This document shows positions 3,383 to 52,199 of a DNA stretch of 53,616 nt, in pieces (position 1 is the first letter of the stretch; each line of letters begins with the position of its first letter). Position numbers and translations under genes: made by a program. Origin of the DNA: Phycisphaerae bacterium (lineage in GTDB: Bacteria > Planctomycetota > Phycisphaerae > Sedimentisphaerales > Anaerohalosphaeraceae). Location of the stretch: positions 1 through 53,616 of the forward strand of contig JAOUFG010000004.1 of the NCBI GenBank assembly GCA_029858345.1, read 5' to 3'. Below the pieces are notes generated by a model that searched no databases, was not told the DNA's origin, and was given only the letters and a program-made list of their open reading frames with translations.

Positions 3383-3412
3383 CAAAAACAAAACAAGGCC
3401 CGCTTGGGGGCC
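3383..3412 (-). terminator. Rho-independent terminator after the MscS gene
   Basis: GGCCC (3397-3401) and GGGGCC (3407-3412) form a short GC stem. On the minus strand it is followed by a T-rich tract (TTGTTTTGTTTTTG). It ends the mscS transcript just before the prolyl isomerase start. Confidence 0.58.
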
Positions 3413-3445
3413 GTTATTCAACATCGCCAAACGACAATAAACATT

Positions 3446-12294: not shown

Positions 12295-12325
12295 AAATTA
12301 AAATTCTAATACAGGAGGCGAAACG

Positions 12326-13399: not shown

Positions 13400-13403
13400 T
13401 CTG

Positions 13404-13547
13404 TCAATCTTCTTCCGGTCGAGTTAATACGAATAATGGGCAAAAATCATAATTGCCATCAGAGGGATTTTTTATGCCCATAAATTCTAATACTTTTTGC
13501 TGTGTTTCTTCACATAAATCGTCGAAATAGATATTTAATTCGTCCAT
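13404..13547 (-). CDS. 47-residue acidic protein
   Basis: A short protein (MDELNIYFDDLCEETQQKVL at its start, then a GNYDFCPLFVL motif) with a strongly acidic, amphipathic character. Small proteins with an NIYFDDL...Q..VL core accompany integrative elements and phages in several phyla, but their role is not known to me. ATG13547 is chosen because AAAGGG lies about 10 nt upstream; the open frame extends further but would overlap the recombinase. It starts 17 nt after the recombinase stop and is likely cotranscribed with it. Confidence 0.6.
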   Translation of the reverse strand: MDELNIYFDDLCEETQQKVLEFMGIKNPSDGNYDFCPLFVLTRPEED

Positions 13548-13564
13548 AGTTTGAATCCCTTTCA

Positions 13565-14668
13565 TTAATCTAATTGGTTTATTGCTGATCGATTGACACC
13601 CGGCTGACAATGACCGTAAAGATCAACCGTCATAGTAATAGAACTATGACCCAATTGCTCTTTGACATAATGAATTGGTGCACCAATTTGAAGTAGCAAC
13701 GACGCATAAGTATGTCGAATATCATGGACGCGGATTTTGGGCAGCTTCGCTTTGGTCAATGATTTATAGAATACACCTCGCCTGAAAATATTGGCATTGA
13801 TCGGTTCACCTTCACGGTCTGGAAATACAAGGCATATCTTCTTTTTCTTATGTGATTGACAGTGCAAATCCTTATTTCTGGCTTTATGTCGGGCTTTCAA
13901 TGCTTTATATAATCCATCCGTCATATCAATATATCGAACCTTATGCGATTTGGGTGTGTCCCAATGGTCATGGCTATAGCTTCGTTGGACAATAATCTGC
14001 TTAGTATCAAAGTTCACACTGTCCCAAGCCAATCCCACTAATTCACCAAGCCGCATACCAGTACGGAAGGCCGTAAGCACTAAGTCATAATAATCGGGTT
14101 CGTCCTTTTGAATGACGTCCAACAGTCCCGTTACTTGCTCCTTAGTTAGAAATTGGGTTTTCTTCTGCGGTTTCGACTTCTTGAAAAATCGGCCTAAATT
14201 ATGAGCCGGATTCACAAGTACAATTTCCCGTTCTACTGCCTCGGCAAACACCGCACTAATGCAAATTCTGATATTCTGTACGCATAACCCATTGCCTTGT
14301 TTATCCAATAGAAGCCGCTTGACCTCTTGCCGATTGATGCTCTTTAATTTCTTATTTTTCCATTCTGGCAGCAAGTACAATTCGGCAATCCGTTGATATG
14401 AGTACCATGAGTTACGTTTTAATCTGTGCTTTGCAACCTTGTTAATGTACTCCTTGAAGAACCCCCCGAATGTGACATTATCCTTGTCCAGCCCTCGTCC
14501 ATTGGTAAAATCGACCTGACCTAATGCCAATTGCTCCCGAAATTTTCGTGCTGCCTTTATTGCTGTTCCTTTTTCAGGTCCAATTTTCCGTGATGTCCGT
14601 TGGCCCTTGTGATTAATCCACACATACCAATCCCCGCTTGTTTTTTGCTGATAAAGCCTAACACCCAT
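13565..14668 (-). CDS. Tyrosine recombinase (integrase) of the tRNA-Ser side
   Basis: A 367-residue integrase of the lambda/XerD superfamily. The N-terminal arm-binding domain (1-60, WYVWINHKGQRTSRKIG) is of the AP2-like type, the SAM-like domain spans 65-165, and the catalytic domain follows. The catalytic set is complete: Arg in TGMRLGELVGL, Lys in PKSHKVR, HDIRH, LGHSS and Tyr in TVDLYGH. AAAGGGG precedes ATG14668. The gene lies next to the 3' end of tRNA-Ser, the usual target geometry, with clustered inverted repeats between. It probably drives a second integration event, independent of the tRNA-Val recombinase, which is only distantly similar. Confidence 0.93.
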   Translation of the reverse strand: MGVRLYQQKTSGDWYVWINHKGQRTSRKIGPEKGTAIKAARKFREQLALGQVDFTNGRGLDKDNVTFGGFFKEYINKVAKHRLKRNSWYSYQRIAELYLLPEWKNKKLKSINRQEVKRLLLDKQGNGLCVQNIRICISAVFAEAVEREIVLVNPAHNLGRFFKKSKPQKKTQFLTKEQVTGLLDVIQKDEPDYYDLVLTAFRTGMRLGELVGLAWDSVNFDTKQIIVQRSYSHDHWDTPKSHKVRYIDMTDGLYKALKARHKARNKDLHCQSHKKKKICLVFPDREGEPINANIFRRGVFYKSLTKAKLPKIRVHDIRHTYASLLLQIGAPIHYVKEQLGHSSITMTVDLYGHCQPGVNRSAINQLD

Positions 14669-14786: not shown

Positions 14787-14967
14787 ATTGTGGCGTGTTT
14801 TCTGGACCTCGAACACCCGGAAAATGGATAGAATTGGACTTTTTTAGTTGCACATAGAATGCGCTTTTTCGTTATGAATAACCGAATGAGAGAAAATGGA
14901 GATTGGGGGGATGGTAGAACGACTCGGGTTGTAATTACTGTGCAGACAAGCAATTAGTTATATTTAA

Positions 14968-15057
<90 letters not shown>

Positions 15058-15172
15058 ATGGTCCTATTCAAAAATGCAAATAGCTGCTTATGAAAAGCCA
15101 AAACTGCGTCTTTTCCGCAAATTACGCCAGCACCAATCTAAGCCCGGCATGTTGCGAACAACTCGATGCATA

Positions 15173-34615: not shown

Positions 34616-35704
34616 CTAATCCGGCGCTTCAGCCGGTTCGACTGCTTCCGGCTCCGGCACATCTTCCAGCAATTCAGCTAACGGTTTGGTCATGTTGTTG
34701 GCGATATAAGAGGGTATCTGGTAGACCCAATTCTGGTGTTTTTGGGTAAAGGCCTTGGCGGCGTCCATCGCCAGCAACTTCGCCTCTTTCTCTTTTAACT
34801 GCTCTTCGGAGTCATCCTTGCCAACCTTGACCTGAGACTTATCCAGGTAGTCCGCTGATATTTTGGCGTATGTCTTTTCGTCCTTTTGGGCCAGCGTTAG
34901 CTTATAGACAGTTTGGTCGTCCAGTTTGCAGGTGTAGGTGTTATCAAATTCCAGTGATGCCGGGGAATTGGCCACACTGGTCACATCCTCAAACCGAAGC
35001 GAATTTATCGCCCCGAAAACAGATTTATAGTCGATTCCCTTAACCTGTTTGCCTTCGGGCATGTCCTGCAGTTCGACAGTCGTTTTATCCTCGGACGCTT
35101 TCAGGACGTAGCTGTCAGCGCCGGTGCGGACGGCCACACTGGCTATCTGCTTCTGTTCGATCTGAAGCAATTGAGCATCCACATAGTCCATCGGACGGGC
35201 AGAAATGTATGGGGGTTGTTGAATAGAATAGACATCATTTGCAGTGCCCAATCTCGCAAATGCTCCACCCTCACCATCGCTTTCTGAGACGAAAAAGCGC
35301 ACAATTTCCTTCCCGTCTTTATCCATAAAAGCAACCTGATAACGAGCTGTTTCGTCTGTTACTTTCAGGTCGACGTGATTATCCGGATTATCTGTTACTT
35401 TCTCATGCGTGCGAATATCCAGGCAATTATTGATGAGACGGTTGATCCTGGCAATATCTGCCGGGTAGTTATCTTTATCCGCAACGACAAAACCCTTTCC
35501 GGAGCGGTTCAGTGTTGTCGTTTTGGCGCCCTTATCACTGGTAATCGTGATGGCCGAAATGGCCTCAACCTGAAGTCCTTCGATCAACAGTGAACTGCTG
35601 AAATCGGCAACATTCACATTTTGACTGATACGGTTCTGCAGAACCGCCCACCCAGCCATGAGAACGGCAATCATCCCTAAAACTGAAAGTTTTTTGTTAC
35701 TCAT
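34616..35704 (-). CDS. DUF4340 protein of a Gld-type ABC system
   Basis: A 362-residue, membrane-anchored extracytoplasmic protein. One N-terminal membrane segment (about 5-22, VLGMIAVLMAGWAVLQN) is followed by DUF4340-like beta-rich repeats. The residues SAITITSDKGAKTTTLNRSG and AFARLGTANDVYSI are typical. The C-terminus is acidic (EPEAVEPAEAPD). The start is set at ATG35704, with AGGAGAG upstream. DUF4340 proteins regularly follow GldF/GldG-type genes, as here, and are thought to be an extracytoplasmic part of that transporter. It is the last gene of the operon. The substrate is unknown. Confidence 0.82.
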   Translation of the reverse strand: MSNKKLSVLGMIAVLMAGWAVLQNRISQNVNVADFSSSLLIEGLQVEAISAITITSDKGAKTTTLNRSGKGFVVADKDNYPADIARINRLINNCLDIRTHEKVTDNPDNHVDLKVTDETARYQVAFMDKDGKEIVRFFVSESDGEGGAFARLGTANDVYSIQQPPYISARPMDYVDAQLLQIEQKQIASVAVRTGADSYVLKASEDKTTVELQDMPEGKQVKGIDYKSVFGAINSLRFEDVTSVANSPASLEFDNTYTCKLDDQTVYKLTLAQKDEKTYAKISADYLDKSQVKVGKDDSEEQLKEKEAKLLAMDAAKAFTQKHQNWVYQIPSYIANNMTKPLAELLEDVPEPEAVEPAEAPD

Positions 35705-35737
35705 TGATTCTCTCCTGTATAATTTCAGTCTTTCCAA

Positions 35738-38422
35738 TCAGGAATCACTGGCATGACTGATATAACGTCTTCGTTTGATACTTCGATAGATTCCAAGCCC
35801 AATCGCAATGATCAATGTCAAAATGGGCCCCGGGACCGTGCAATAGAAAAGCATCCGCTCTTTGAGCACTTCGACACTTTTACGTTCCTGCATCTTGATA
35901 TCCCGCATTTCTTTTTCCAAGTCACGCAGTTTTAATTCAATCTCTTTCTTTTCTTCAAGAATCGTCTGATTGATCAGCGCCCCTTTGCCCTCGCCCTGAA
36001 GTGACCGAAGTTTCTCATTTAACTGCTGTTCAAATTCTTTGATTCTCGCCTCAATTCGCCGTGTTTCCTCAATCGTTTTCTCCTCAGCGACAGCTTCAAT
36101 GTCTTTGACCACTGTAAACGGCCGCTCATAGTTACCACGGGATCGGATCGAGATCAACCGCTCGGAACCGGACAGGGTCTCCAAGGCATTCAGCAGCAGC
36201 GTACTGTTGTCGCCGACAGGTACCATCCCAAAGATGCTCCGCCGATAGGCCACCATGTCCCCGAGAAAATCAACATCCGACAGTACGACCACCGCACCGG
36301 ATTCAGTCGCTTCGGTCAGCCCCGTAACTGTCTTGGTCCTGGGTTCATCGCTTTCATCAGATTCTTCGGCTTCGTCCGCAGTCTCATCGGGCATCTCAAT
36401 CCCATCCGGAAAGGCGCTTTTGAAGTTGCCGGTGACCATGTATCCCATCACAACCGGTTTGGTCCCGTCGCGAAACCGCCGCATAAAGAGACCGTAATCA
36501 GGATTCATCAGTTCATAAGGATTCTCGATCTTCCATGTATTACCTGCATCTGTCGTCATCAAAAGCGGCGTATGTTTTAGCTCGGGTGAATTTTCATCCG
36601 TTTCCAGTTTTTTCAGCACCCCCGAAAATGCGGTGCTCACTTCACCCAGCTGGGCAACGATGGGATTTTCTTTGTTGAAACAATTGTTTGCAGCATTTAA
36701 TTTCAGAATACTCAATATCTTTTCCGGCCGCCGATTGGGATTAGGAGCACCCACGACTGCCAGAGAGCGGTCTCCGGCAAACGTCATCGCCGGCATCTCC
36801 AGCCCCCATGCCTTTAATAATTGTGGAATGTCCGAGGAGGCATTGTGCTGGCCGCCCCTCATCATCTGCTGCTGATCCGGCGGATCGGCAATGCAATAGG
36901 GATCCACGCAAACAATCGCCCGGCCGCCTTTCAGGACGAACTGATCAATCGCAAAGAGCGTTTTTTCCGGAAGATCCTTCGGATGAATCACCAGCAGCAG
37001 ATCGACGTCAGCAATCGTGTCCGTATCTGCCGGAATGGAAGAAACATCAAACTGTTGTTCCAGATGAGCAATAATACCCCATTTAGGGTTGCCCTGCTGG
37101 CCCTGCATTCGCATCATCTGCAGCATATAGTCCGAATCGCCCATCACCGGCAGCGAACTCAACACGCCCACCCGTGTTTTCTGCCGGGTCACCGCGGTAT
37201 CGATCAGGTAACTGATATCATACTCGACAAACTGCTGCCGGTCCGGTGCAAAAAAATCAATCGTCTTGGTCACACCAAACTGCGTCTGAACCACCAAGCC
37301 GAAGAAAAAACTCTCATCTTCGGTAATATTGAATCGGCGCAGGCCGTAACGGATGGCGGCCAGCTCCTCTTCGCTGTACGGCCGCGGATCCACAATTTCC
37401 AGGATCACATTGCCCTTGGCCTGGGTTTCATACTCTTCCAGCAGTGCTTTGACGTAAGTGTAGTAATTGTTGTAATAGCGAATCTGATCGGGCCCCTTCA
37501 TCGCGGCAGTCTTGGCATAGAAAAGCTTCAGCGTAATCGGCTGCTTGAGATCGGCAAGAATCTCCTTGGTCCCGTTGTCCAGCGTATAGAGTTTTCTCTC
37601 TGTGATATCCAACCGGGCCTGTTTGAACAGGTTCTGTGTGACCGAAACGGCTGACACCGCAATCACCAAAACAAAAAAGATTCCTAATACGGCTCGCATC
37701 GTCCGGCCACCCAGAATCAGCGCGGCGGCACACACCCACGCCGCGATCAGAACACCAAAGTACGCGATATCCTTAAACTCCACCACACCCCGCATAATGG
37801 ATTCGAAGTGTGCCTGAAAGCTCAAACTCTCCACTACTGATGCAACGGCCGGTGAGGCCGTCGAAGAAACATAGTCCAGTGTCGTCGGGTTGTCCGCAAA
37901 CACCAGTATCGCACAGGCAACCACCGACAAAATAAAGCTGATGACCTGATTTTTGGTCAGCGCCGAGAAAAACGAGCCGATCGCCAAAAAGCCCCCTGCC
38001 ATCAGAAACGCCCCGATATACCCGGTCACGATCTGCCCCATATCCGGTTCACCGAGATAATTAACCACCCACGGCAGCGGGAACGTCAGCAGCAGTGCAA
38101 TACCCAAAAAGGCCCACGCCGCGAAAAACTTGCCCAGAACCGCCTGCGGTACGGTAATCGGCAATGTCAGCAGCAGTTCAATCGAACCGCTTTTGCGTTC
38201 TTCGGCCCATAGCCGCATTGCCACCGCCGGCACAAACACCATAAACAGCACCGGCAGGTTGGAAAAGAACAGGCGTAAATCCGCCTGCTGAATCTCAAAA
38301 AACTTCTGGATAAACGGCCACAGTCCGGCGGCAAACAAAAATATCACCAAAAAGACGTATGCCACCGGCGTCGCGAAATATCCCTTTAATTCTCGTTTTA
38401 ATACTGCTAAAAAGCCATGCAT
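35738..38422 (-). CDS. Fused GldF-GldG: ABC-2 permease plus auxiliary domain
   Basis: An 894-residue membrane protein combining two proteins that are separate in Bacteroidetes. Residues 1 to about 255 are an ABC-2 permease with six hydrophobic segments (start FLAVLKRELKGYFATPVAYV). A further membrane segment leads into a large extracytoplasmic GldG-like domain (about 280-830, DITERKLYTLDNGTKEIL at its start, DLLLVIHPKDLP in the middle). A coiled coil (EEKKEIELKLRDLEKEMRDI) precedes the last membrane helix and a basic tail. I prefer the second of two close ATGs because GGAG lies 8 nt before it. In gliding bacteria GldAFG is needed for motility; elsewhere the system is a transporter of unknown cargo. 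Confidence 0.86.
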   Translation of the reverse strand: MHGFLAVLKRELKGYFATPVAYVFLVIFLFAAGLWPFIQKFFEIQQADLRLFFSNLPVLFMVFVPAVAMRLWAEERKSGSIELLLTLPITVPQAVLGKFFAAWAFLGIALLLTFPLPWVVNYLGEPDMGQIVTGYIGAFLMAGGFLAIGSFFSALTKNQVISFILSVVACAILVFADNPTTLDYVSSTASPAVASVVESLSFQAHFESIMRGVVEFKDIAYFGVLIAAWVCAAALILGGRTMRAVLGIFFVLVIAVSAVSVTQNLFKQARLDITERKLYTLDNGTKEILADLKQPITLKLFYAKTAAMKGPDQIRYYNNYYTYVKALLEEYETQAKGNVILEIVDPRPYSEEELAAIRYGLRRFNITEDESFFFGLVVQTQFGVTKTIDFFAPDRQQFVEYDISYLIDTAVTRQKTRVGVLSSLPVMGDSDYMLQMMRMQGQQGNPKWGIIAHLEQQFDVSSIPADTDTIADVDLLLVIHPKDLPEKTLFAIDQFVLKGGRAIVCVDPYCIADPPDQQQMMRGGQHNASSDIPQLLKAWGLEMPAMTFAGDRSLAVVGAPNPNRRPEKILSILKLNAANNCFNKENPIVAQLGEVSTAFSGVLKKLETDENSPELKHTPLLMTTDAGNTWKIENPYELMNPDYGLFMRRFRDGTKPVVMGYMVTGNFKSAFPDGIEMPDETADEAEESDESDEPRTKTVTGLTEATESGAVVVLSDVDFLGDMVAYRRSIFGMVPVGDNSTLLLNALETLSGSERLISIRSRGNYERPFTVVKDIEAVAEEKTIEETRRIEARIKEFEQQLNEKLRSLQGEGKGALINQTILEEKKEIELKLRDLEKEMRDIKMQERKSVEVLKERMLFYCTVPGPILTLIIAIGLGIYRSIKRRRYISHASDS

Positions 38423-38443
38423 TGTCATTACTCCGTCATTGAA

Positions 38444-39166
38444 TTATGCCGATTTTTTAGTCGTCGTGATTTTGCGAAAGACCTCATTCAGACTGCACCC
38501 GTGCTCTTCGGTCAGCTTGGAAGGCGTCGAATCGGTCAGGATTTGTCCCCGTGCGATGATGATCGTGCGGTTGCAGACCTGCTCAACCTCCTCAAGAATA
38601 TGCGTCGAGATAATGATGCATTTTTCCTGGGCCATCCGGTTGATCAGTTGCCGCACCTCGTGCTTTTGGTTCGGATCCAGCCCGTCGGTCGGTTCGTCCA
38701 GGATCAGCACCTGCGGATCGTGAATCAGGGCCTGTGCCAGACCCACACGCCGTCGATACCCCTTTGACAGCGTTTCAATTGTCTGATGATACACAGACTC
38801 AATGGAACACATCGATAAGATCCGCTCGATGGCCTGTTTACGGACAGAACCCTTCATCTGTCGGGCATCGCAGACAAAATCCAGAAACCCCGCCACGGTC
38901 ATCTCATTGTAGGCCGGTGCGTTTTCCGCCAGGTACCCCAGACAGCGGCGAACGCCAACCGGATCCGTAATAATATCATGACCGCAAACAGAGGCCGTCC
39001 CGCCGTCGGGCGCTAAAAAGCAGGCCAGCATTTTCATCGCTGTGCTTTTGCCCGCACCATTCGGGCCGAGAAAGCCAAGTACATCCCCCTTTTGAGCCGT
39101 AAATGAAATGTCATCGACTGCCACAACAGGCCCGAAACATCGCCGCAAATGCTGCACTTCAATCAT
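38444..39166 (-). CDS. ABC transporter ATPase, GldA-like
   Basis: A 240-residue ATP-binding subunit. Walker A is GPNGAGKST (34-42), the signature is LSKGYRRRVGLAQAL (a LSKG variant common in ABC-2 exporters), and Walker B is VLILDEPTDGLDP. The switch histidine lies in IISTHILEEV. It powers the fused permease encoded 22 nt downstream, forming with it and the DUF4340 gene a three-gene operon. There is no distinct promoter that I can assign in the 240 nt upstream, which are largely AT-rich. Confidence 0.93.
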   Translation of the reverse strand: MIEVQHLRRCFGPVVAVDDISFTAQKGDVLGFLGPNGAGKSTAMKMLACFLAPDGGTASVCGHDIITDPVGVRRCLGYLAENAPAYNEMTVAGFLDFVCDARQMKGSVRKQAIERILSMCSIESVYHQTIETLSKGYRRRVGLAQALIHDPQVLILDEPTDGLDPNQKHEVRQLINRMAQEKCIIISTHILEEVEQVCNRTIIIARGQILTDSTPSKLTEEHGCSLNEVFRKITTTKKSA

Positions 39167-39341: not shown

Positions 39342-39381
39342 AAAAAAACGAGCCGCACATCTGAAAATGCGCAGCTCGTTG
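39342..39381 (-). terminator. Terminator of the giant gene
   Basis: On the minus strand AACGAGCTGCGCA pairs with TGTGCGGCTCGTT around a short loop (arms about 39346-39359 and 39368-39380), followed by seven T residues. It lies 28 nt after the stop codon. Confidence 0.78.
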
Positions 39382-39408: not shown

Positions 39409-42400
39409 CTATGGCGCCGGCGTAAAAATCGTCCGGGTTTGAGACTTAACCGTCGTATTCTGATTCGGCGATTGGTCGCGAACAAGGATATACCATCCAT
39501 CACTGGCGTTTATAATCCCGCGAGGCGCCCAGTACTGTTCCGGCACCTGAGGATCTCCGTTCGGATAGGTCAAACCCACCACGTTGACGGCATTCCGCCA
39601 TGCCAGACCATCGGGGTCAGAACTGCCACCGCTGCTGTAAGACGAATTCGTCGCGTTGACAAACCTGTATTCGACATCGCTGACATCCGTCGCCGCCACG
39701 GCGGTGACAACGTGGTAGTAGATACCTTTCGAAGCCACAAAGACCTGGAACGGCGAGCCGCTGGCATGCTGTGCCGGATCCGGGTCCGGCGGTGTCAGGT
39801 CGGGACCAGACGCCACAACCGAGGCCTCTTCGGACCAGTCACCGTCCTTAATCTTAACGGAAGTACCGTCACCCGGCTCATAGAACAGGCCCATACGGAC
39901 TCGATAAGAATAGGTCTGCCCTTCGACCATACCGCTGTCGACATAAACCGGGTCAAAATCATAGAAACGGCCATCACCGCCGGATGCCGTACCGGTATAA
40001 TCAAACTGGTATTTGATCACATACCCCGCCGGAAGCGTTGGAACGGTAATTCCAAGCGTATCGAAGAAATCCTCATAAGCAAGCGCTTCCATCTGGATGG
40101 CAAACTCAGCAGTCTTTACAAATGGCGGTTCCAGCCATTGTGCCGCCGGCAGTTCGGTACCTTCACCCGGCGTAACAGGATCTACCGAGTTGCTCAACGC
40201 GGTCGAATTACCCTTTCCATCGACGGCTTGAACATATAAACTGTAGCTGCTTGGAGCAAGGCCCGATTTGGACGCATAAACCCGCACAACATTTCCATCT
40301 TCGTCCTTGGATTCCGGAACCTGCATGATTTCGGCATAAGTCAACCATCCATCTTGATTTACATCCTGATCAATATAAAAGATGTCCGGGTTATCTCTTA
40401 AGCCGGAATAGAACCGATAGCTGATATACTCATCCGGGAACCACAGATCGTGATGCAGCTTCGCTGTCATTTGGATCTTGTCAAATGTTTCCGCGGTTGC
40501 GAATGGCTCGACTTCCCATTCCGCCGGATCGGGGAACGGAGGTTCGGTGTCTGTCTCCTGCCAGCAGGCTGCGATATTAACGTAGTCCTGGAAGTCCACT
40601 TCAGTATCGAAGTTTTGATCGGCACCCTGACACCACAGGTTGCTTCCGGCACATGATCCCAGCCACCACGAAGCAAATGCCGCCAAATCGTCAAGCTCAA
40701 TGATACCATCGAGAATCAGATCTGCCCGGCGGCAGGATGTTACGGCCGCTTTTTGATAATGGTAGCCGACATCCACTTTGCCCTTGTCAATAGCGCCGAA
40801 AATACTCGTTGTGTAATTCGACAGACCAACCGACGAAGCAAAATCACTGCCTTTATCAATACAGGGGCTGCCCTGCTGGTCCAGATAGAATCTCAAGGTC
40901 ACATCGTCAGCAGGGGCAGGGGTATCCGATGGGGCCACGAAGTCCGGATCCTGGCTGAAAATCCCCGCTCCTGGATTGAAGGTACAACCATCTTCAACAT
41001 AAATCGCGTTGGCACTGGGATAATTTGCCACATCCGAATAAGAAATGGTCAGTTCCGATGGGCGTTCATAGGTAGGTCCGGTGCCAAGATAAACACTTTC
41101 ACCCCGATCGGCCAGGTTGTACCAGAAAATACTGTCAATAACCTCAGCGATACTGTCAAAGGAGACATTCAGGCCGCCACCCTTGCCCGGAGACAGTTGG
41201 ACCGATGTCGTTATCGGAATCAAAACGGGATTGTTGTCGTCATCGAGCACCGGTTCACCCGTTTCGGGATCCAGCACAACTTCGAATTCTCCGGTCTCAA
41301 CATCATCATAAATACCGACCGCAACGTTGTCGGCAAATGTACAATTGCCAAACCGCGCCCGGCTCATCCAGTTCACCGAAGCCCCTGCACCGTCAAGTTT
41401 TGCCGTGTTTTCCACGAACAGGCAGTTAAAGATATCCGCCGTTTCGGCAACCGTGCCGCTCAGCAGCAATCCGCCGCCGGACAGTTGGGATCGGTTCTTA
41501 AGAAAGATACTATCGCGAATCTGCAAATCCTGAACATGAGCAAAAATACCTGCGCCTTCACCGGTCAGATCCAGTGTCGCCGCTGGTTCAACCGGTTCAT
41601 CCGGATCCGGCTCCGGTGCATCCGGATCGGGCGGCACAACCACCACCTCCGGAACCTTCGCCTGGTTTGCCTCGAACCGCGACCCGGAAATAACAGCCGC
41701 CTCATCGTCCAGGAAAACGCCCGCACCGATATAGGCCTCGTTGCCAAAAACATTACAATCTGCGATCGTTGTAGGAGAATCAAATCCATAGACTTCGATT
41801 TCTGTAGGAGACTCGTATCCATAGATAGCCCCGCCGACCGTTGCATCATTCTCAGCAATGTCACAATCAGTAAACGTAGCGCGGCAGTTAAATTCATACG
41901 CAACCGCACCGCCAAAGCTGACCTGGAAGGTATGCGGCAGATCCACTGTGGTCTTGTCCGCAGTGTTGTTGTGGAACGTACAGTTGTCAAATGTCAAGTC
42001 GCTGTCAAACATTGCAAACACCGCACCTCCGGCCGTCGGCATATTCAACTGTCGATCCGGCCACGGGGTCTCAAGAAAGAACGGGGGATGTTGCCCACCG
42101 ATACCGGTAAGGCCACCATGGGACTGATTGTTCTCAAAAGTGCAGTCAACAAAATTCGCATTACTGTCAAAGGCACAATAAACCGCACCACCGTAACCAC
42201 TGTGGCGCCAGGATTCAAAGAGGGTATCGTATGGTTTCGGAACAAAATTGACAAAGTCGTCCCAATCTGTCAACTCATCGGCCCATCTAAACCACCTTTT
42301 CCATGTATCAAAGTCGTATTCCCCGAATCTTGCTGCATCGAGAGAATACTTTTCTGTATTGCTATTATAGGACCATCCATCCCAACCTACGTAATCAATA

Positions 42401-45400
42401 AAGGTCTGTTGCTCAACAACGTCATCATAAGTCCAGCCACCGCCGCGACCGCCCCAATAATCGACATTTTCAATTGTCACGAAATCAGCTCCGTTGCCGC
42501 CGTTGCCGCCAAAAACTTCATTTCCGCTAAAAGTGCATCCGATGAAGGTTGGATTACTACTGAAACCACAATAGACCGCACCACCATAAGCGGCACCCGG
42601 CCAACCGCCGTCACCGCCATTCGGATGGTTATCACCTCCCTCGAATCCATCTTCAGCATTGCCGCCGTATAACGCGTTGTCTTCAAAAATGCAGTTGATA
42701 ATTTGGGGCGAACTGTTTCGCATTTCCATCGCGCCGCCGACTATCGGACTCGGATGGTATCCATCGGTCCCATCAGGAATATCTCCAATATGAACCGGTG
42801 TCGCACGAGTAAAACGGCATTCCCGGAAGACGCAATTTCGAATGGTGAGATCAGCGTTTTGCAAGGTCGTTCCACCCTGTTCAATCGTAATACCTTCAAC
42901 AATGGTATGTTCATCCAGATTGCTAAGGATAAAATTAAGATCCCTGAAAACGGTTGCCCGCACAACCGATTCATCGTCCGGATTGGAACCTGAAATCGTC
43001 ACTTGCTTGCCGTCAAGTTCGTAATATCCGGTTAACGAAGGATATTGACTCGCAGCCGTATATTCACCGGGAGCGATGAAGATCACATCGCCGTCCTGGA
43101 CATCGTCGAGGGCATCTCCCAGTGTGTCGTACTCTGCAGAAGTGCCGACATTCAGCGTTCTCCGCAGACGCACCAGAACCAGGATATCCCTGTCCCGCGT
43201 CATCAGAACAACATTTTTAGGGTCTTTGGAGTTGTCATTACCCGTTCCGCCGCTCCAGCCGGTCAGGAAGTATTCGTCATTGACATTCGCAAGCAATGGA
43301 ACCACCGCCCCTCGGATATAGCTTCCGGATGCCGGAGTGACCGTTCCGCCGCCGTTCTGAATTTGAGCCGTCAAATTATAGTACGGGATACCCGAAGGAT
43401 CATCATAATGGTATCCCAGATCCAAACGGCCCTGATCGAGCATTCCGGCAGGATCAGTCGTATAGGGATATGGATCACCCAGCATCGCCACCGCCGCACT
43501 CATGCTTCCGGCATCTACAGCCGGGCTGGTCTGCGTCAGATAATAGCCGTCCAGCGGGCCGTCCGCAAAGAGGGGATCGCCCACCAGGACATTCGTGTAT
43601 CCCGGTTGCGGCATCGTCTCCAAAGCGCTCTTGCCGGTGCGTGCCTGGTTCGTCTGAGCGTCAAACAGATCGCCCACACTATTGTTGTAAAACAGTGTAT
43701 AAGCCGCATCGGAATCGCCGCCGGGGGTGGTACTGCCGCCGGCCGGCAACTCATAAATACCATAACCTGCATTACCGCTGACAATCGAGTTGGCCAGTGA
43801 GACGGTGGACGAATTGTCCACAAAAATTCCGCCGCCCAGTTGATTGTTGCTGGTGTTACCCGCAACGGTACAGTTATCCATTTCAACGTTAACATTCTGC
43901 CGACAGCTAAGACCGCCGCCGCCGTTATCGGACGTATTGCCTGCAACCAGACAGTTCAGCAGATTCAGTTCCTTATACGTTTGGCCGCCGGCAATGCACA
44001 GGCCGCCGCCGCAGGAATTGAGGCCGTGAGCTTGGTTATTCAATATCCGGCTGTCAGCTATCGCGACCTTGCAGTCCACGGCAATTACGCCGCCGCCTAA
44101 ACCTTCTTCAACAATCGGCCGGTATTCGCCTTCGATCAGACCTGTCGCCTCATTGCCGTACACCAGCGCCCCCTGCATCTCGAAATCGGAGTTGACAGTG
44201 TAAACGGCACCGCCGCTCTGACCGCTATTCTGAACGAAGAAGCAATCTGTCAGATTCAGAATCGACGTCTTTGTATACCCGGCGCCACCGAGCCCTTGCG
44301 CTTTATTCTCACTGAACTCACAGTTCGTAAAGTCCAGCTTCAGCGTATACGTATCCGGGGACGGAAGCGGATAATAGGAGTAGAAAGCGCCGCCGTTACC
44401 TATCGCCGAATTTGCGTTGAATACACTGTCAGTAACCTCGATGTCACTGTCGGTCCGAATGGCGCCGCCGGAACCATCGGTCATATTGCCGGTAAAATCG
44501 CAACCCGAAATCTGAGATGGGACTTTGGAGTCCACTTCGACAGTGATCCCGCCCGCGTTATCCCAGGTGGCCGTGGGTTCAGGAGGGAAGAATAAAAACG
44601 TACTATCAGCGTCTGCGTCCGGATCGTAGGTCTTGTTATTGGTGAAGTCGCAATCATCAACCGTCAGGGTCGCACCCGTACTGCAGTACAGGGCACCGGC
44701 AAGATTCTCAGTAAAATCACAGCCATGAATTTTGACGATGGCATTCGGATCGATATGGACCGCTCCGCCGCGAGTATAGACGGGCGGATCATTATACGTA
44801 AAGACATCATACGCGGAACTGTTACTAAATTCACAGTCGATTAACGCACCGTCGGTTTCTTCTGCAAAGAAGACAGCACCGCCGGCGATGGTTCCGTAAT
44901 CGGTCAAAATACCGTCACGGCCCTCACGCGCACCCTGCTGCCCCCATGCAACAGGCGGAGCTGCAGCATCAAACGGTTCCGGATAGGCAGCACCGCCAGG
45001 CGATTCCGCACCGCCGGCACTGACATAACCGGGACGGGCATAATTGCCCTCGAAAATACAATCTGCAATGGTCGGTTTACATCCGGCGTCCACAAAAATC
45101 GCACCGCCGCGGCCATCGCCTTCGCCGTCTCCCGCTTCAGGATTGATGCCATAGAAAATAGACGCCCAGGCAACACCCGCCCAGTCATTTCCGCCCCAGC
45201 CGTAACGGCCGTTGCCGTAAGCGCCTCCGGCATCGCCGGGGATACCGCCCCAGCCACCGGTTGCACGGTTTCCGGTAAATTTACACTGTGAAATAATCGG
45301 GCTGCTTCCGTCAATCACTGCGATCGCGCCGCCATACCCATCACCAGTTCCCTTGCCGGAGTGACCGCCGGATTGGCTGTCAACATTCCCACTGATGCCC

Positions 45401-48400
45401 GACAGACCCGGAGGCGGAGAACCGTCTGCACCATCGCCGCCGATACCGCCCGAAACCGTACAGTTTTCAAACACACACTTACGAATCGTCGGCGAGCTGC
45501 CGTTTTCACACAGAACAGCGCCGCCGTAACTGTCACCCGTTGCGTCCATACCGGATAAAGCGCGGAATGGCGGCGATGGCTTCGGATTGTCAGCTGTCCA
45601 TGGTTCGGGAGGTATGCCAAAAATGGTGCCATCATGCCACGGCCACAGGCCTGTATCAAGCGCATAGCTGGGACCGATCACCGCGGTAAACGCGTTGCGG
45701 ATCGTAACACCTTCAATAATTGTATTCGGATCGGCACCATTATTGAAAAGGAATGCGCGCTTGGACACATACCGGCTCCCCTGTGCATTAATAATCGTCT
45801 GTGCAACAACATCGGGATTATCCGGATCCGTTGACCTCAGATGAACCTGCTTCGCCGTACCGTCCGAATTCAGCCCGAAATTGATACCTTCAGGATCCGC
45901 AATCAAATACGGCTGTGCGGGCCGCGGCGCCAGAATAATCGTATCCCCGTCGCGAGACGCCATTACGGCATCTTCAATCGTATCATAACTTTCCGGCACA
46001 TACAGATTCTTCGGAACCGCCAGCTCAAACTCAACCTGAACCGTCTCATAACCGGTCATGGTAACGGTATCGGTTTGCCCATAATAGAACGGGGCACTGT
46101 CGGTACCGATCCAGCGTTTGACGCGGTAGTTTTCATCCGGGATCGCTCTCAACTCGACGACCGTACCCTGCTTGAATGTATACACATAGGTTGCCGTATT
46201 GGGATCATCCTTTTTCTGAACAGGATCTGTCAGCGAGGGGGTCAGGACTTCCAATTCACCATGTCGGAATCGATCCGCAACATAAACGCCGGCTTGCAGC
46301 GTATATTCCGCCACGGGCCCGGCCGCGTCATAATGATACCCCATATTCACAGGATCCGTTTCGGCTTCATGGTCGGTACGCGTTGTCGGGTCAAACTCTA
46401 ATAATGCTGCCAGATCCGCAACCGTTCCCGTACCGGAATTCACACACGGGCTGTCCGCTAATTGACCTGCGGCAACCTGAGACAGATAGAATGTCCGTTC
46501 GGTAACGTCATTCGGGTCGGAAATCGCAACAAACAGCGGATCGGCCTCATCGACCTCTGTAGCAGGATCATCTTCGATGTTGTTCGAACTGTACCAAAGC
46601 CACGGACCATCTCCATCACCGACAAAGACATCGTCTTCGCCGCCCTGAATATCACTGTAGTCGACAAAAACCGTCGAGTAAGGAATATAATCCGGATCAT
46701 AATCCTGTACCAGTTCCAACGGATCGCCCACAGCGATCTGCGAACCGAACATCGCCCCCGGATAGAAGTCTTCTGAGCTCCAGAAAATGCTGTTGACGAC
46801 TTCGACAAAGGCATCATGCGCCAACATCGCACCGCCAACCCCATACTGATCCAACACGACGTTATCGACAAAATCACAGTTCTGCACATAGACATCGCTG
46901 GCCCCGCTGGCCACCATCGCACCGCCCTGAAGACCGGCCGAATTTTCAACAAACAGGTTGTTGATCAGGTTCTGCGGGTACCAGTCCAGCGAAGGACCAT
47001 TCACAAAAACCGCACCGGCAAAACCGTCAACGGTATTGCTGGCAAAGCGGTTATTAATCATATCCAGATTGGAGTCGGAAACATACAGGCCGCCGCCGCT
47101 GCAAAGCGTCTCAACCGTACTGGCGTCCGCCTCGCTTTGGTTGCCCAAAGACGGAATATCCGTTCCGATATTCCCATCGAATGCAGTGTCTTTAACGAAT
47201 AAGTCACTTGCGAACACAAAACCGCCGACACCCACTTCACCGGTATTCAGGGTAAACTGCGAATCCGTAATATCCACAAACGAAGCATCCAGGCACAACC
47301 CGGCACCGTACGGGGACAGGTTTTCTTCAAAAGTACAACCTGCGACCGAAACAGAATAGACCGGATCCTTGTCTCCCCATAAAATGGAATCTGCCTCCTG
47401 GACATCATCCCAGAGCTGGGTCGTTATCGGATTCGCAAAAAAGACAAATCCATGATAATGATCATACACCGAGACAATAAAACTTATGAAATCATTAAAG
47501 GCAACCGGGTCAAAAAGGAAATAATTCTCATAATCATCATAATTTGTATATCTGTCATCTTTCAGATAGTTAAAATAAAATTCTTCATAGGGATCCAGGG
47601 TGTTACCCGCGTAAACAGCCCCGCCGTAAGAATACATAAAGTGAGAGTTCGCCTGATTTCCCGTAAAGGTACACGCGGTGAGGTCAAGATTCCGCGGCGT
47701 AACATAATTCGGATCTACCGGATCAAGCTGACTGTTCGGGTCTGACGGTGCGAAATCGCAGTAAATCGCAGCACCGCTGTAAGCATTATTTTCGACAAAT
47801 TCGCATCCACTAAAGGACAATCGAATGGGCTGATCGGCAAAGATGGCACCCCCCATACCCTCAAACTGATAATCACGCAGTTCGACGATGCTTTGTCCAT
47901 ACTGCGTTTGGTTATTTTCAAAGGTACAATTTTCAAACTGGGCATCACACCCCTTGTCGTACAGTTCACCGCCGCCATGGTTGGCAAAACTGTTATTGCC
48001 CGATACCCTTGTATCTCTCATCACAATAACACATTTTTCGCCGTAGAAATTAGCTCCGGCACAGGCGCCCGTGCTGCGCTGTTCGGGATTTGTTGGGGTC
48101 AGGGATTCGACTTCTGCTGTCGTACTCAACAACGTTGCGTTTTCATAATCATAGGTATAAAGAGTCGGATCGCCGGGGAAATTGGGGTCCTCATACACGG
48201 GAACATCCCATTTCTCAATGGTGGTTAAAAAGCCGAAATAGGGAGAAAATGGACTGTCAAATATATCCGTATATCCTAATTCAACTATCACCTCGCCCGG
48301 CAAAGGATCTGCTGGCGGGGTAATGACCTCTTCGTTAATAATCTCCGATTCCCATTCCCAAGTATATGCAAAATTTAAATGATCGTTTGGATCATCCGGG

Positions 48401-51400
48401 GGATTGTCGATATTCATGGTATCTTCCCAGTAGTACGCCATATAATAGACATTCGAGGGGAAAATACCTGTATGACGATTACTACCCGTAAACGTGAGTC
48501 CGCCGGGGTTGCCGCCCTGACCTAAACGGAAACCGCCGTTACCGCCGGCAGCACCATTACCGCCGCCATTACCGCCGGTACCGCCGGTTGCATCGACACC
48601 CCCTATCTCCGTCATCTTGGGTGGAATAAAATAGGCCGGGCCGCCATGACCACCGTTACCACCGGGAAAACCACCATTGCCGCCGCCGCCGTTACCGCCG
48701 TCACCACCGGAATAATCCCCGGACAACAACGCAACGACACGGCAATTCTCAAACGCACAGCCGTCAATCGTCACTTTCGTATTATCACCGAAGTAAACAG
48801 CCCCACCCGACGAATCCGGAGCGCGTAAATCACCGCCGATACCCCCATTACCGCCGTGACCACCTCTGGCGTCGCCTTTGGCATCGCTGCCATCGCCACC
48901 GTCACCGCCGCTGCCCGCTTCACCCACTTGGACAAAACAATCGCTTATCGTTACATCGTATAACTCCGGCAGGCAGTTGGATTCAAAATAGATCGCACCG
49001 CCCCACGCGCAGCCGCCCTTACCGGCGTTGCCGCCGTCACCGCCGCGCCAACCGGGTGTACCATCTGGAGCGCCTTGAGAGTGTCCACCGCCATTACTGC
49101 CGTTTCCGCCGTTACCGGCATTACCGCCAATGGCCTGACAATTGGTAAATTCGCACTCTTTAATGAGGGGAGATGAACCTGCGTAAGCATAAATCGCACC
49201 ACCGTAGGCGTTGCCGCCATCGACGCCGGGAGAACCGGGGTTACCGTCACTGTCATTGCCAGGGTTCGGCCCGTTACCCCCATTGCTGCCATACCCCCCA
49301 TGAGCAAAACAGTCCACAAAAACACAATTGCGAATCGTGGGACTGGCAGGATTCGTTTGGGTACCCATTAAAATGGCCCCTCCCAAGGCATCTACAGTGG
49401 CAGTCAGCGCAATTTCGGCTTCGTCAAAAGCAGTCGCGTTTTTAATCGTAATACCCGCCAGCACCGTATCGCGTCCTTCACCGTTTTGTATCAGAAACGC
49501 ACGACGGGGCTCATGTATCCAAATCTGTTCCGGCTCGGCACAATCGATCACAGTGGCCGCAACAACGGTCGAATCTTCCGGATTTTCACTGCGAACCGTA
49601 ATCGCCTTGCCCTTAAAATCGATATTGATCTCACGGTAAACGCCCGGGTGAACCAGAACCGTATCGCCATGATTCGATGCGTTAATCGCTTTTTGAATCG
49701 TCGGATAGGTTGCCGTCGGCACTTCACGCACAATGGACGGTGGGGCCAAGATCACTTTGCCTTCGCTCGACCACCCCGTCATGTTTTGACTCGCGTCACG
49801 AATACGAACCCGGAATATATAGGTATTACCCGGGGTTCCAATAGAAACCCCTGAGACAGTATACAACGCATTGGTCTGCCAATTACTGCTCATCGCATTC
49901 GGATCCGGATACGCCGGGTCCGTCGTTGAAACACACTCAAAAAAGTATTCCACCTGCGTGCCAAACTCATCATATCCATGCGCCGCTTCCATTGAGATAC
50001 GACTGTTCGAAATCTTTCGCGGCGTTCCTTTCCACGCTGCCGGATTCGGATACGGCGGCAAATCATCGGTGCCCAAAGCGGCCGTGGTCATCGCCACATC
50101 GGACCATTCAGTTTCCAGGGCCTCTTCATCCGGTTCAGTCACAACATTGCGGGCTTTGACTCGGAAATAATAATCTGTCCCCTCGGCATAACCACCCCGA
50201 TAGAATACCCGTTCACTGACCCAACCGCTATCAAATGATGTATCCCCATAAGTTTCATCGTTAAAATTAGCCGGGTCTGTCTCGACATCAATGTAATATT
50301 CAACGCCTGAGGAATGCTGTGCCTCTACTGCTTCGGTATAAATTGTTTCGAGACCAACGGCCACCGGTTCAACGTCCCACTCCATCGGATTCGGAACGAT
50401 TCCCCGGATAAGATCAGCCGGGTCAAAACACTTGGACAACTCGGTCACCAGGCAGGCCTTTTCAAGATTCCATTGCTCATCTTCGGTCCATCTCAAATTG
50501 ATCGCTGCTTGGGTCAGTGCGACATGGAAGTCCGCATAATCTGAAGACTCGGTCAAAAGATTGGTTTGACATTCATACATCAAATCGGCAACAGCAGAAA
50601 TGCCCATGCCCGTGATTTCAACATCCTTAAATGTATCCCCATCGGTCAACAGGTAGCAAAGTTTATTGCCGACACCGCTGTTCCAGTGAACCCCGCCGTT
50701 ATCAAAGGGCCCATCATACCATAAAGGACTGCATTTACTGTCCGGATCGCCGAAAGCAGGTGGATTCGACATATCGCGAATGGCTCCCATTCCCGGAACA
50801 TCTTCACCCATTAACCAACGCACTGAAGGATCATCATTGCCACCTGTATTGGTCAAATCAACCCATTCACCCCACATATCCGAAAATGATTCGTTGATCG
50901 CCCCGGATTCATTCATGTAGATCAGGTTGGACTCATACTGGGTCACACCGTGCGTCAGTTCGTGGGACGTGACATCGTCGACGGCAAAGCCCAAACCAAA
51001 CAGCATTTCGCTGCCGGTCCAAAAGGCATTGGCAAATGTAAAACGCACCGTTGCTTTCATGAGCATCCCGGCATCGTCAATGCTGTCACGCCCATGTTCA
51101 TTCAAATAGAAGTCATAAGTATCTCCCAGAAAATCATAAGCATCGTCAACGTCCACAATATCCGTCGGCTGATCGCCCTCGGCACGTGCCAGGACCGGAT
51201 CGGCCTCATCGTCACCGTCCACATCCCAAATTTCCCGGTTCCTGGCATTAATGATCTGGCTATAACGCAACGCGGTTTCACCGGTGTGTGCGTCAATAAG
51301 AACCACTTCATTGACAACGTAAGCCGGAACGCTTGTAACCACAGTATGCCAAACCAAACGGGTCGATCCCGAATTGCCAATAACCTCCGGCTGATAGATC

Positions 51401-52050
51401 ATGAGTTGTGGATCGCTGTTTTCAAGCTCAACATTCGGATGCTCGGCCTGCATCAAATCAACTGCCAAAAACGCTGCCTCCTCGGCAGTGATGCTCGGAG
51501 CCACAGAAACTTTTCCGCCATCAAGAGCGTCAGTATCGGTCATAATGTCACTGAGAACAAATTGAACTCCGCCCGCATCGTCTAACTGGACGATCATCTC
51601 ACCGCCAAAAACCGGAATATTCGAATAAGTCTGAATGAAACGTTCGTAGTTGCGGCCGTTCTTCTTTTTTGATTTTTTGTGAGCAAAATCTATTGATTTG
51701 CTAATAACCCCAAACGCCTTGCCGTGTTCACCGATAAAGTTCTTCGCCGTAGCACGGGGATTGCCCTTAACAACCTTAGTCACCGGAAACACGTGGTCTG
51801 CCGGTGCCCCTAACGAACGGAGATATCCATTCTTATAGCCCGTCCGAGCGGATTTCCCGTTTTCCTGACCAGCAGCAACACCCTGCGGAGCGCGCATAGT
51901 GCCCACCAGTTGTTCAATTGCCTGAGACGCGGCTTTGTTGGATTTTCCGGAACTCCCGTTAGCCTGACCGGGCGCTGCCTGTAGAATCCCGGAAAAGGCA
52001 ACTATTGATAAAAAAATGATTGCAATAATAGCAGTTCTGCGACTTCTCAT
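39409..52050 (-). CDS. Giant secreted M4 metalloprotease / triple beta-helix / dockerin-like protein
   Basis: About 4,213 residues. The start ATG52050 has GGAGG 6 nt upstream and begins a clean signal peptide (to about 25, SGILQA). An FTP propeptide precedes a thermolysin-like M4 domain with zinc ligands His363, His367 (HELTH) and Glu387 (GAINESFSD), catalytic Glu364 and the GGVHWNSG histidine at 455. Three right-handed beta-helix modules follow, starting near 777, 2019 and 2971 (openings TIQKAIN, TIEDAVM and TLGDALD) and each closing with GYHYD or GYHYQ (about 1903, 2877, 3758). Glycine-rich loops interrupt module 1 in particular. InlB-B-repeat-like segments (about 1914-2010, 2891-2960) join the modules. 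A dockerin-like segment lies at about 3772-3832 (ADLILDGIIELDDLAAFASW, then ADQNFDTEVDFQDYVNIAACW), followed by fibronectin-like domains. No PEP-CTERM tail is present. A surface-attached or secreted adhesin/protease is likely; the target is unknown. Confidence 0.9.
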   Translation of the reverse strand: MRSRRTAIIAIIFLSIVAFSGILQAAPGQANGSSGKSNKAASQAIEQLVGTMRAPQGVAAGQENGKSARTGYKNGYLRSLGAPADHVFPVTKVVKGNPRATAKNFIGEHGKAFGVISKSIDFAHKKSKKKNGRNYERFIQTYSNIPVFGGEMIVQLDDAGGVQFVLSDIMTDTDALDGGKVSVAPSITAEEAAFLAVDLMQAEHPNVELENSDPQLMIYQPEVIGNSGSTRLVWHTVVTSVPAYVVNEVVLIDAHTGETALRYSQIINARNREIWDVDGDDEADPVLARAEGDQPTDIVDVDDAYDFLGDTYDFYLNEHGRDSIDDAGMLMKATVRFTFANAFWTGSEMLFGLGFAVDDVTSHELTHGVTQYESNLIYMNESGAINESFSDMWGEWVDLTNTGGNDDPSVRWLMGEDVPGMGAIRDMSNPPAFGDPDSKCSPLWYDGPFDNGGVHWNSGVGNKLCYLLTDGDTFKDVEITGMGISAVADLMYECQTNLLTESSDYADFHVALTQAAINLRWTEDEQWNLEKACLVTELSKCFDPADLIRGIVPNPMEWDVEPVAVGLETIYTEAVEAQHSSGVEYYIDVETDPANFNDETYGDTSFDSGWVSERVFYRGGYAEGTDYYFRVKARNVVTEPDEEALETEWSDVAMTTAALGTDDLPPYPNPAAWKGTPRKISNSRISMEAAHGYDEFGTQVEYFFECVSTTDPAYPDPNAMSSNWQTNALYTVSGVSIGTPGNTYIFRVRIRDASQNMTGWSSEGKVILAPPSIVREVPTATYPTIQKAINASNHGDTVLVHPGVYREINIDFKGKAITVRSENPEDSTVVAATVIDCAEPEQIWIHEPRRAFLIQNGEGRDTVLAGITIKNATAFDEAEIALTATVDALGGAILMGTQTNPASPTIRNCVFVDCFAHGGYGSNGGNGPNPGNDSDGNPGSPGVDGGNAYGGAIYAYAGSSPLIKECEFTNCQAIGGNAGNGGNGSNGGGHSQGAPDGTPGWRGGDGGNAGKGGCAWGGAIYFESNCLPELYDVTISDCFVQVGEAGSGGDGGDGSDAKGDARGGHGGNGGIGGDLRAPDSSGGAVYFGDNTKVTIDGCAFENCRVVALLSGDYSGGDGGNGGGGNGGFPGGNGGHGGPAYFIPPKMTEIGGVDATGGTGGNGGGNGAAGGNGGFRLGQGGNPGGLTFTGSNRHTGIFPSNVYYMAYYWEDTMNIDNPPDDPNDHLNFAYTWEWESEIINEEVITPPADPLPGEVIVELGYTDIFDSPFSPYFGFLTTIEKWDVPVYEDPNFPGDPTLYTYDYENATLLSTTAEVESLTPTNPEQRSTGACAGANFYGEKCVIVMRDTRVSGNNSFANHGGGELYDKGCDAQFENCTFENNQTQYGQSIVELRDYQFEGMGGAIFADQPIRLSFSGCEFVENNAYSGAAIYCDFAPSDPNSQLDPVDPNYVTPRNLDLTACTFTGNQANSHFMYSYGGAVYAGNTLDPYEEFYFNYLKDDRYTNYDDYENYFLFDPVAFNDFISFIVSVYDHYHGFVFFANPITTQLWDDVQEADSILWGDKDPVYSVSVAGCTFEENLSPYGAGLCLDASFVDITDSQFTLNTGEVGVGGFVFASDLFVKDTAFDGNIGTDIPSLGNQSEADASTVETLCSGGGLYVSDSNLDMINNRFASNTVDGFAGAVFVNGPSLDWYPQNLINNLFVENSAGLQGGAMVASGASDVYVQNCDFVDNVVLDQYGVGGAMLAHDAFVEVVNSIFWSSEDFYPGAMFGSQIAVGDPLELVQDYDPDYIPYSTVFVDYSDIQGGEDDVFVGDGDGPWLWYSSNNIEDDPATEVDEADPLFVAISDPNDVTERTFYLSQVAAGQLADSPCVNSGTGTVADLAALLEFDPTTRTDHEAETDPVNMGYHYDAAGPVAEYTLQAGVYVADRFRHGELEVLTPSLTDPVQKKDDPNTATYVYTFKQGTVVELRAIPDENYRVKRWIGTDSAPFYYGQTDTVTMTGYETVQVEFELAVPKNLYVPESYDTIEDAVMASRDGDTIILAPRPAQPYLIADPEGINFGLNSDGTAKQVHLRSTDPDNPDVVAQTIINAQGSRYVSKRAFLFNNGADPNTIIEGVTIRNAFTAVIGPSYALDTGLWPWHDGTIFGIPPEPWTADNPKPSPPFRALSGMDATGDSYGGAVLCENGSSPTIRKCVFENCTVSGGIGGDGADGSPPPGLSGISGNVDSQSGGHSGKGTGDGYGGAIAVIDGSSPIISQCKFTGNRATGGWGGIPGDAGGAYGNGRYGWGGNDWAGVAWASIFYGINPEAGDGEGDGRGGAIFVDAGCKPTIADCIFEGNYARPGYVSAGGAESPGGAAYPEPFDAAAPPVAWGQQGAREGRDGILTDYGTIAGGAVFFAEETDGALIDCEFSNSSAYDVFTYNDPPVYTRGGAVHIDPNAIVKIHGCDFTENLAGALYCSTGATLTVDDCDFTNNKTYDPDADADSTFLFFPPEPTATWDNAGGITVEVDSKVPSQISGCDFTGNMTDGSGGAIRTDSDIEVTDSVFNANSAIGNGGAFYSYYPLPSPDTYTLKLDFTNCEFSENKAQGLGGAGYTKTSILNLTDCFFVQNSGQSGGAVYTVNSDFEMQGALVYGNEATGLIEGEYRPIVEEGLGGGVIAVDCKVAIADSRILNNQAHGLNSCGGGLCIAGGQTYKELNLLNCLVAGNTSDNGGGGLSCRQNVNVEMDNCTVAGNTSNNQLGGGIFVDNSSTVSLANSIVSGNAGYGIYELPAGGSTTPGGDSDAAYTLFYNNSVGDLFDAQTNQARTGKSALETMPQPGYTNVLVGDPLFADGPLDGYYLTQTSPAVDAGSMSAAVAMLGDPYPYTTDPAGMLDQGRLDLGYHYDDPSGIPYYNLTAQIQNGGGTVTPASGSYIRGAVVPLLANVNDEYFLTGWSGGTGNDNSKDPKNVVLMTRDRDILVLVRLRRTLNVGTSAEYDTLGDALDDVQDGDVIFIAPGEYTAASQYPSLTGYYELDGKQVTISGSNPDDESVVRATVFRDLNFILSNLDEHTIVEGITIEQGGTTLQNADLTIRNCVFRECRFTRATPVHIGDIPDGTDGYHPSPIVGGAMEMRNSSPQIINCIFEDNALYGGNAEDGFEGGDNHPNGGDGGWPGAAYGGAVYCGFSSNPTFIGCTFSGNEVFGGNGGNGADFVTIENVDYWGGRGGGWTYDDVVEQQTFIDYVGWDGWSYNSNTEKYSLDAARFGEYDFDTWKRWFRWADELTDWDDFVNFVPKPYDTLFESWRHSGYGGAVYCAFDSNANFVDCTFENNQSHGGLTGIGGQHPPFFLETPWPDRQLNMPTAGGAVFAMFDSDLTFDNCTFHNNTADKTTVDLPHTFQVSFGGAVAYEFNCRATFTDCDIAENDATVGGAIYGYESPTEIEVYGFDSPTTIADCNVFGNEAYIGAGVFLDDEAAVISGSRFEANQAKVPEVVVVPPDPDAPEPDPDEPVEPAATLDLTGEGAGIFAHVQDLQIRDSIFLKNRSQLSGGGLLLSGTVAETADIFNCLFVENTAKLDGAGASVNWMSRARFGNCTFADNVAVGIYDDVETGEFEVVLDPETGEPVLDDDNNPVLIPITTSVQLSPGKGGGLNVSFDSIAEVIDSIFWYNLADRGESVYLGTGPTYERPSELTISYSDVANYPSANAIYVEDGCTFNPGAGIFSQDPDFVAPSDTPAPADDVTLRFYLDQQGSPCIDKGSDFASSVGLSNYTTSIFGAIDKGKVDVGYHYQKAAVTSCRRADLILDGIIELDDLAAFASWWLGSCAGSNLWCQGADQNFDTEVDFQDYVNIAACWQETDTEPPFPDPAEWEVEPFATAETFDKIQMTAKLHHDLWFPDEYISYRFYSGLRDNPDIFYIDQDVNQDGWLTYAEIMQVPESKDEDGNVVRVYASKSGLAPSSYSLYVQAVDGKGNSTALSNSVDPVTPGEGTELPAAQWLEPPFVKTAEFAIQMEALAYEDFFDTLGITVPTLPAGYVIKYQFDYTGTASGGDGRFYDFDPVYVDSGMVEGQTYSYRVRMGLFYEPGDGTSVKIKDGDWSEEASVVASGPDLTPPDPDPAQHASGSPFQVFVASKGIYYHVVTAVAATDVSDVEYRFVNATNSSYSSGGSSDPDGLAWRNAVNVVGLTYPNGDPQVPEQYWAPRGIINASDGWYILVRDQSPNQNTTVKSQTRTIFTPAP
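48490..49320. repeat. Glycine-codon repeats inside the giant gene
   Basis: Dense clusters of ACCGCC/GCCGCC-type triplets on the plus strand (GGN GGN on the coding strand) encode loops such as GGNGGNGSNGGG. The triplet runs are imperfect and lie in frame, so they look like expandable coding repeats. Smaller clusters recur in module 2 near 44.9-45.5 kb. Confidence 0.6.
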
Positions 52051-52199
52051 AACACCCTCCGCAAAGGTTTTAATAGATTTCATCTCTCATATCCCAATAA
52101 GTATTAGACCATTTAGGCGCAAACAGACCGCGCACCAAAATCAATAAACCGATTTCAATCCGTTATCTTATCGGAAAATGTAATAGGCAAGTTTATCTC

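Follow-up and report, generated by a model that had tools for sequence, protein, structure and literature searches.

The window, that is, the whole stretch of DNA that was analyzed, is an entire contig (C30) with a length of 53.6 kb. The draft genome to which it belongs spans 3.0 Mb in 198 contigs, is 99% complete, and comes from a planctomycete bacterium; the named genomes nearest to it are Planctomycetota/Sedimentisphaerales MAGs. The contig encodes a 4,224-residue member of peptidase family M4 in which the predicted catalytic domain is followed by three beta-helix modules. On balance, we favor the view that this is a secreted, zymogen-type zinc endopeptidase, whose beta-helix modules would hold the predicted enzyme on a polysaccharide-rich or particulate substrate through a putative ligand there. 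Its two closest relatives are L007, from a congener, and L008, a 2,645-aa protein from an independent MAG (Sedimentisphaerales bacterium PL23b_bin.92, JANQHJ010000100). The gene consists of the following parts.

39409..52083, minus strand: complete ORF of 4,224 aa plus stop, with a mature part of ~447 kDa and a pI of ~4.1
51976..52083, minus strand: Sec-type signal peptide, residues 1-36, with a hydrophobic core and LQA-AP (from the sequence)
51241..51975, minus strand: propeptide, residues 37-281, with the FTP motif at 135-176 (Pfam)
50449..51240, minus strand: M4 catalytic domain, residues 282-545 (Pfam, PDB sequence search, structure alignment)
50890..50964, minus strand: zinc site, HELTH (374-378) to Glu398 (alignment to thermolysin)
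49729..50406, minus strand: pair of FN3-like domains, residues 560-785 (the homologue L008 has an fn3 match, and the AF2 model has structure matches)
46309..49728, minus strand: beta-helix module 1, residues 786-1925 (Pfam), with Gly-rich and long inserted stretches
46015..46308, minus strand: InlB-type repeat region 1, residues 1926-2023 (Pfam Flg_new_2; position inferred from spacing and L008 homology)
43384..46014, minus strand: beta-helix module 2, residues 2024-2900 (Pfam), an extra module missing from L008
43159..43383, minus strand: InlB-type repeat 2, residues 2901-2975 (Pfam)
40738..43158, minus strand: beta-helix module 3, residues 2976-3782 (Pfam), with confident rungs in the AF2 model
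40549..40737, minus strand: degenerate dockerin-like pair, residues 3783-3845 (DLILDGIIELDD ... DQNFDTEVDFQD; sequence, same-genome match G000:C144)
39412..40548, minus strand: FN3-like C-terminal region, residues 3846-4224 (BLASTP similarity to FN3-like regions of L007 and L008)
39347..39380, minus strand: intrinsic terminator directly past the stop codon, with a 15-pair stem plus a T run

The uninterrupted 12.6-kb frame claimed in the original prediction, which gave no strand, is real and lies on the minus strand. The open reading frame check found no internal stop; at this composition, so long an open run would arise by chance with a probability of ~10^-87, and the remaining five frames carry 45 to 326 stops each. 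The end at 52050 proposed earlier is the second Met (residue 12), and the first Met is at 52083; the latter start is favored because the residues ahead of Met12 resemble those in L007 (IKTFAEGV/IKTFTEDV).

The end of the protease gene is 243 bp away from an ABC transporter operon, and the gene is divergent from aroA; given this layout, it is probably transcribed alone. The downstream operon (34616-39166) encodes an ATPase, a membrane protein with ABC_transp_aux/DUF7088, and DUF4340, and presumably resembles the gliding-type GldA/GldG transporters. The case for conserved synteny is unconvincing: aroA adjoins the gene in the window and is two genes off in L008, on the opposite side. Elsewhere in the window, a phage-type integrase gene (13565-14668) is found ~300 bp from a tRNA-Ser gene (14967-15058), and the stretch 12001-14000 beside it has a lower G+C content (38%); this region is a possible integrated element.

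In the N-terminal part of the protein, Pfam searches matched FTP (residues 135-176, E value of 9e-7), Peptidase_M4 (314-382, 2e-17), and Peptidase_M4_C (385-531, 4e-31), and a sequence search of the PDB retrieved thermolysin (3e-45) and bacillolysin (1e-44). All 10 of the zinc and catalytic residues checked are kept. The zinc ligands and the catalytic Glu are represented by H374, E375, H378, and E398, the last of these located 20 residues past the second His, and N352, Y389, D402, R436, D461, and H466 correspond to thermolysin N112, Y157, D170, R203, D226, and H231. The HExxH motif plus Glu is conserved in 23 of the 24 relatives aligned. The exception, the M4 homologue L055 (4481-8806), shows a Gly (G395) in the alignment column of the HExxH catalytic Glu and is possibly an inactive M4 protein, or else an alignment slip. 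Modeled with AF2, residues 38-830 (mean pLDDT of 65, with low confidence in the M4 N-lobe) aligned to thermolysin with a VIA-align Z of ~22 and an rmsd of 3.7-5.3 over 205-227 residues, and the Foldseek matches of the model include the propeptide chain of vibriolysin MCP-02. The N-terminal lobe is ~50 residues shorter than that of thermolysin and likewise short in the relatives; the Pfam M4 N-terminal profile aligned only from position 67 of 145. With its zinc ligands, its homology in the catalytic and C-terminal parts, and its FTP propeptide, the protein is a member of family M4, and its activity is predicted.

The first FN3-like pair in the AF2 model aligned to known FN3 pairs with a Z of ~11. 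Past this pair, Pfam detected Beta_helix (PF13229) in 4 stretches (1.3e-40) and Flg_new_2/InlB-like repeats in 2 stretches (6e-12). In BLASTP, the three beta-helix modules are mutually similar, with 25-29% identity over 400-530 columns. The AF2 model of module 3 plus the C-terminus has a mean pLDDT of 39, with triplet strands at a pLDDT of 70-93 in parts of module 3; it had no PDB match under an E value of 0.001, and its best weak structure matches were to beta-helix enzymes and the P22 tailspike. The model thus did not confirm the predicted dockerin-like and C-terminal FN3-like folds; the last 379 residues are assigned as FN3-like by sequence (BLASTP). Most of the architecture foreseen in the original prediction was thus recovered: the signal peptide (residues 1-36) and FTP propeptide (37-281) ahead of the protease, the intact zinc site (HELTH with a Glu 20 residues later), whose ligands held in the alignment to thermolysin, the three long beta-helix modules (786-1925, 2024-2900, and 2976-3782), and the fibronectin-like domains, which stand on structure for the first pair and on similarity to L007 and L008 for the C-terminal region. 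Among the Pfam families named there as a check, FTP, Peptidase_M4, Peptidase_M4_C, and Beta_helix gave matches. The dockerin-like calcium motif survived in part. Two 12-residue loops are seen by eye, and the second one (DQNFDTEVDFQD) has the complete set of D, N, D, D/N, and D calcium ligands; however, the first one (DLILDGIIELDD) is degenerate, with I or L at position 3 in place of the Asn3 ligand, a loss shared with L008, and the pair did not match Pfam Dockerin_1 (PF00404) even at an E value of 10. A weak link to PF00404 goes through the same-genome protein G000:C144, which of all proteins in the genome matches this profile best and has a segment similar to the pair (E value of 0.005).

The same domain order, which the original prediction had proposed to look for in homologues, is found in L008, where M4, FN3, beta-helix, InlB, beta-helix, dockerin, and FN3 follow each other in a single frame, with two beta-helix modules, not three. 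Since these two pair best with modules 1 and 3 of the window protein, module 2 is the extra one. In L007, which belongs to the same genus, one frame encodes M4, and a second frame that overlaps it encodes FN3 plus beta-helix and remains open over 1,054 aa, up to where the contig ends. The frame break (L007:1675-1747) falls exactly between the M4 and FN3/beta-helix parts, with both sides open, and this one-base break in a metagenome assembly may be either a sequencing error or a real split. A programmed frameshift was considered and set aside, as the break lacks a proper slippery heptamer and is seen in one genome only.

M4 is the best conserved part of the protein, with 73-78% identity to L007 and L008 (73% to L008); the corresponding values are 42-49% in the first FN3 pair and 32-44% in the beta-helix modules. 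A constrained enzyme carried on fast-changing binding or stalk parts therefore fits best. The M4 domains of the three proteins form one clade (100/98 support). L044, L045, and L048, from other Phycisphaerae families, combine M4 with Ig and beta-helix domains and fall in a separate M4 clade (99/100 support), which suggests that the fusion of M4 with beta-helix has more than one origin. Elsewhere in the group, M4 domains are joined to a variety of modules, including TIG plus dockerin, C25, TSP3, Ig, FG-GAP, and InlB, and a related M4 protein of Hydrogenedentota, L014, has a true Dockerin_1 at its end. There are also double proteases (L043:2144-7783, in genome G014, and L012:3711-8219) with a C25 propeptide, FTP, M4, and gingipain-type C25 in one protein; L043 has a beta-helix tail as well. 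In the genome under study, L059:4449-12884 (G000:C19) encodes a protein of 2,812 aa that combines an N-terminal membrane segment, an S8 subtilase, several beta-helix modules, and BACON domains; it is a second, unrelated protease joined to beta-helix. Close homologues of the M4 protein are patchy, with matches in 4 of 59 near relatives, and none at an E value of 1e-60 in other genomes of a 392-genome phylum sample.

The favored scheme for this putative substrate-holding peptidase is as follows. Sec would carry the protease out of the cytoplasm, and the outer membrane would be crossed, probably, by a secretin-based type II system. We infer this route from the signal peptide, the seven secretin matches in the genome, and a secretin gene (L008:6769-9738) located directly ahead of the L008 gene on the same strand. 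By analogy with family M4, the catalytic domain would be folded by the propeptide, which the enzyme itself would then cleave off. The FN3-like spacers would set the protease at the N-terminal end of the beta-helix modules, and these may bind polysaccharide or matrix, keeping the enzyme on a particulate or cell-wall-associated substrate, where it would cut protein, putatively for peptide nutrition. This scheme is consistent with the intact M4 domain with its propeptide and signal, the domain order shared with L008, and the varied extracellular modules fused to M4 domains across the group. There are precedents for the binding step: CBM-54 of ChiW is a right-handed beta-helix on an exoenzyme that binds insoluble wall polysaccharides (PMC5132251), and in the M4 protease E495, the PPC domains at the C-terminus bind the protein substrate and raise efficiency (PMC3327674). 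However, a beta-helix can also serve simply as a stalk or an adhesin, the N-lobe is short and modeled at low confidence, and close homologues are rare.

The original prediction had envisaged a protease at the tip of a very long fibre, as a surface effector. A surface-anchored fibre with a protease tip acting on neighboring cells, prey, or matrix is, in our view, unlikely. An N-terminal protease followed by beta-helix is the layout of protease autotransporters (PMC6555100), and the subtilase of the same genome is also joined to several beta-helix modules. However, searches of the protein and its segments produced no Pfam match to an autotransporter barrel, SLH, a T9SS tail, PEP-CTERM, or another sorting domain, that is, to any anchor or translocator, and a profile search of the genome found no cohesin for the dockerin-like part. 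Among the neighbors tested in the window, no effector or secretion genes were found. The "very long" fibre also proves overstated. The beta-helix rises by 0.48 nm per rung, so the ~15-18 predicted rungs counted on the AF2 model of module 3 give an estimated ~8-10 nm per module; by extrapolation, the whole extended molecule, with its FN3-like domains and head, would measure some 45-60 nm, i.e., just tens of nanometers.

It is also improbable that the M4 head is a processing or shedding enzyme that cleaves the modules attached to it, or other giant surface proteins, freeing the adhesive part. Mature E495 does exist in several forms, with different C-terminal domains retained (PMC3327674), and the L007 break separates just these parts; however, that break is the single base noted above as a possible sequencing error, and cleavage sites are invisible in a sequence. 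A third reading follows the "planctosome" model of dockerin-mounted peptidases in a cohesin-dockerin complex (PMC6461901). In its favor, the dockerin-like pair is kept in L008, at 52% identity, and the related L014 ends in Dockerin_1. However, the pair has the defects described above, and the profile search found no cohesin (PF00963) in the 99% complete genome, so the model is unsupported here and very unlikely to apply. A catalytically dead adhesin that retains the M4 fold would agree with the short, poorly modeled N-lobe, but the full set of checked residues and the conservation of M4 make it highly improbable. Finally, although this genome is a draft and the relatives come from metagenome assemblies, an assembly error joining separate genes is rejected as practically out of the question, as the independent L008 has the same order in one frame and the domains all have a similar third-position GC.

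With this protein, the M4 exoproteases gain a very large member, and planctomycetes are seen to join different peptidases to long beta-helix modules. These bacteria are known mainly as polysaccharide degraders; if the modules are carbohydrate or matrix binders, they would offer a dedicated way of mining protein from polysaccharide matrices. More tentatively, planctomycetes may have repeatedly built giant protease and beta-helix exoproteins from unrelated peptidases (M4 here, the subtilase in the same genome, and the M4-C25 double proteases in a same-family genome), as a barrel-less, unnamed counterpart of the protease autotransporters.

The "new kind" of effector suggested earlier is not borne out: autotransporters with protease passengers are known, the passengers usually forming a beta-helix (PMC6555100), the M4 enzyme E495 has C-terminal domains that bind its substrate (PMC3327674), and M4 plus beta-helix is found in other Phycisphaerae. 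In the open-licence literature, no published description of M4 with beta-helix was found. What is unusual about the protein is that its protease is a metalloprotease, that three beta-helix modules stand in tandem, that it is so large, and that it lacks a barrel. The protein has in common with E495 (with PPC) and vibriolysin MCP-02 the signal, FTP propeptide, M4 residues, and accessory C-terminal domains, but its N-lobe is shorter, and where they have one or two small domains it carries a tail of ~3,650 residues made up of FN3-like, beta-helix, InlB-type, and dockerin-like modules. An N-terminal protease on a right-handed beta-helix is also the design of the serine-protease autotransporters (SPATEs, IgA1 protease), whereas here it is an M4 metalloprotease with several such modules and no match to an outer-membrane barrel. 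Surface enzymes of the ChiW type, with their CBM-54, share the exoenzyme, the right-handed beta-helix, and Ig-fold spacers; however, ChiW is a chitinase, no SLH anchoring was found here, and the beta-helix is compared by fold, not by CBM-54 homology. L044, L045, and L048 differ in their M4 clade, Ig domains, size (1.8-2.0 kaa), and shorter beta-helix, whereas L008 has the same order from the signal to the C-terminal FN3-like region, with two modules instead of three. The protein is thus an unusually large form of a known modular exoprotease type, not a new kind of machine.
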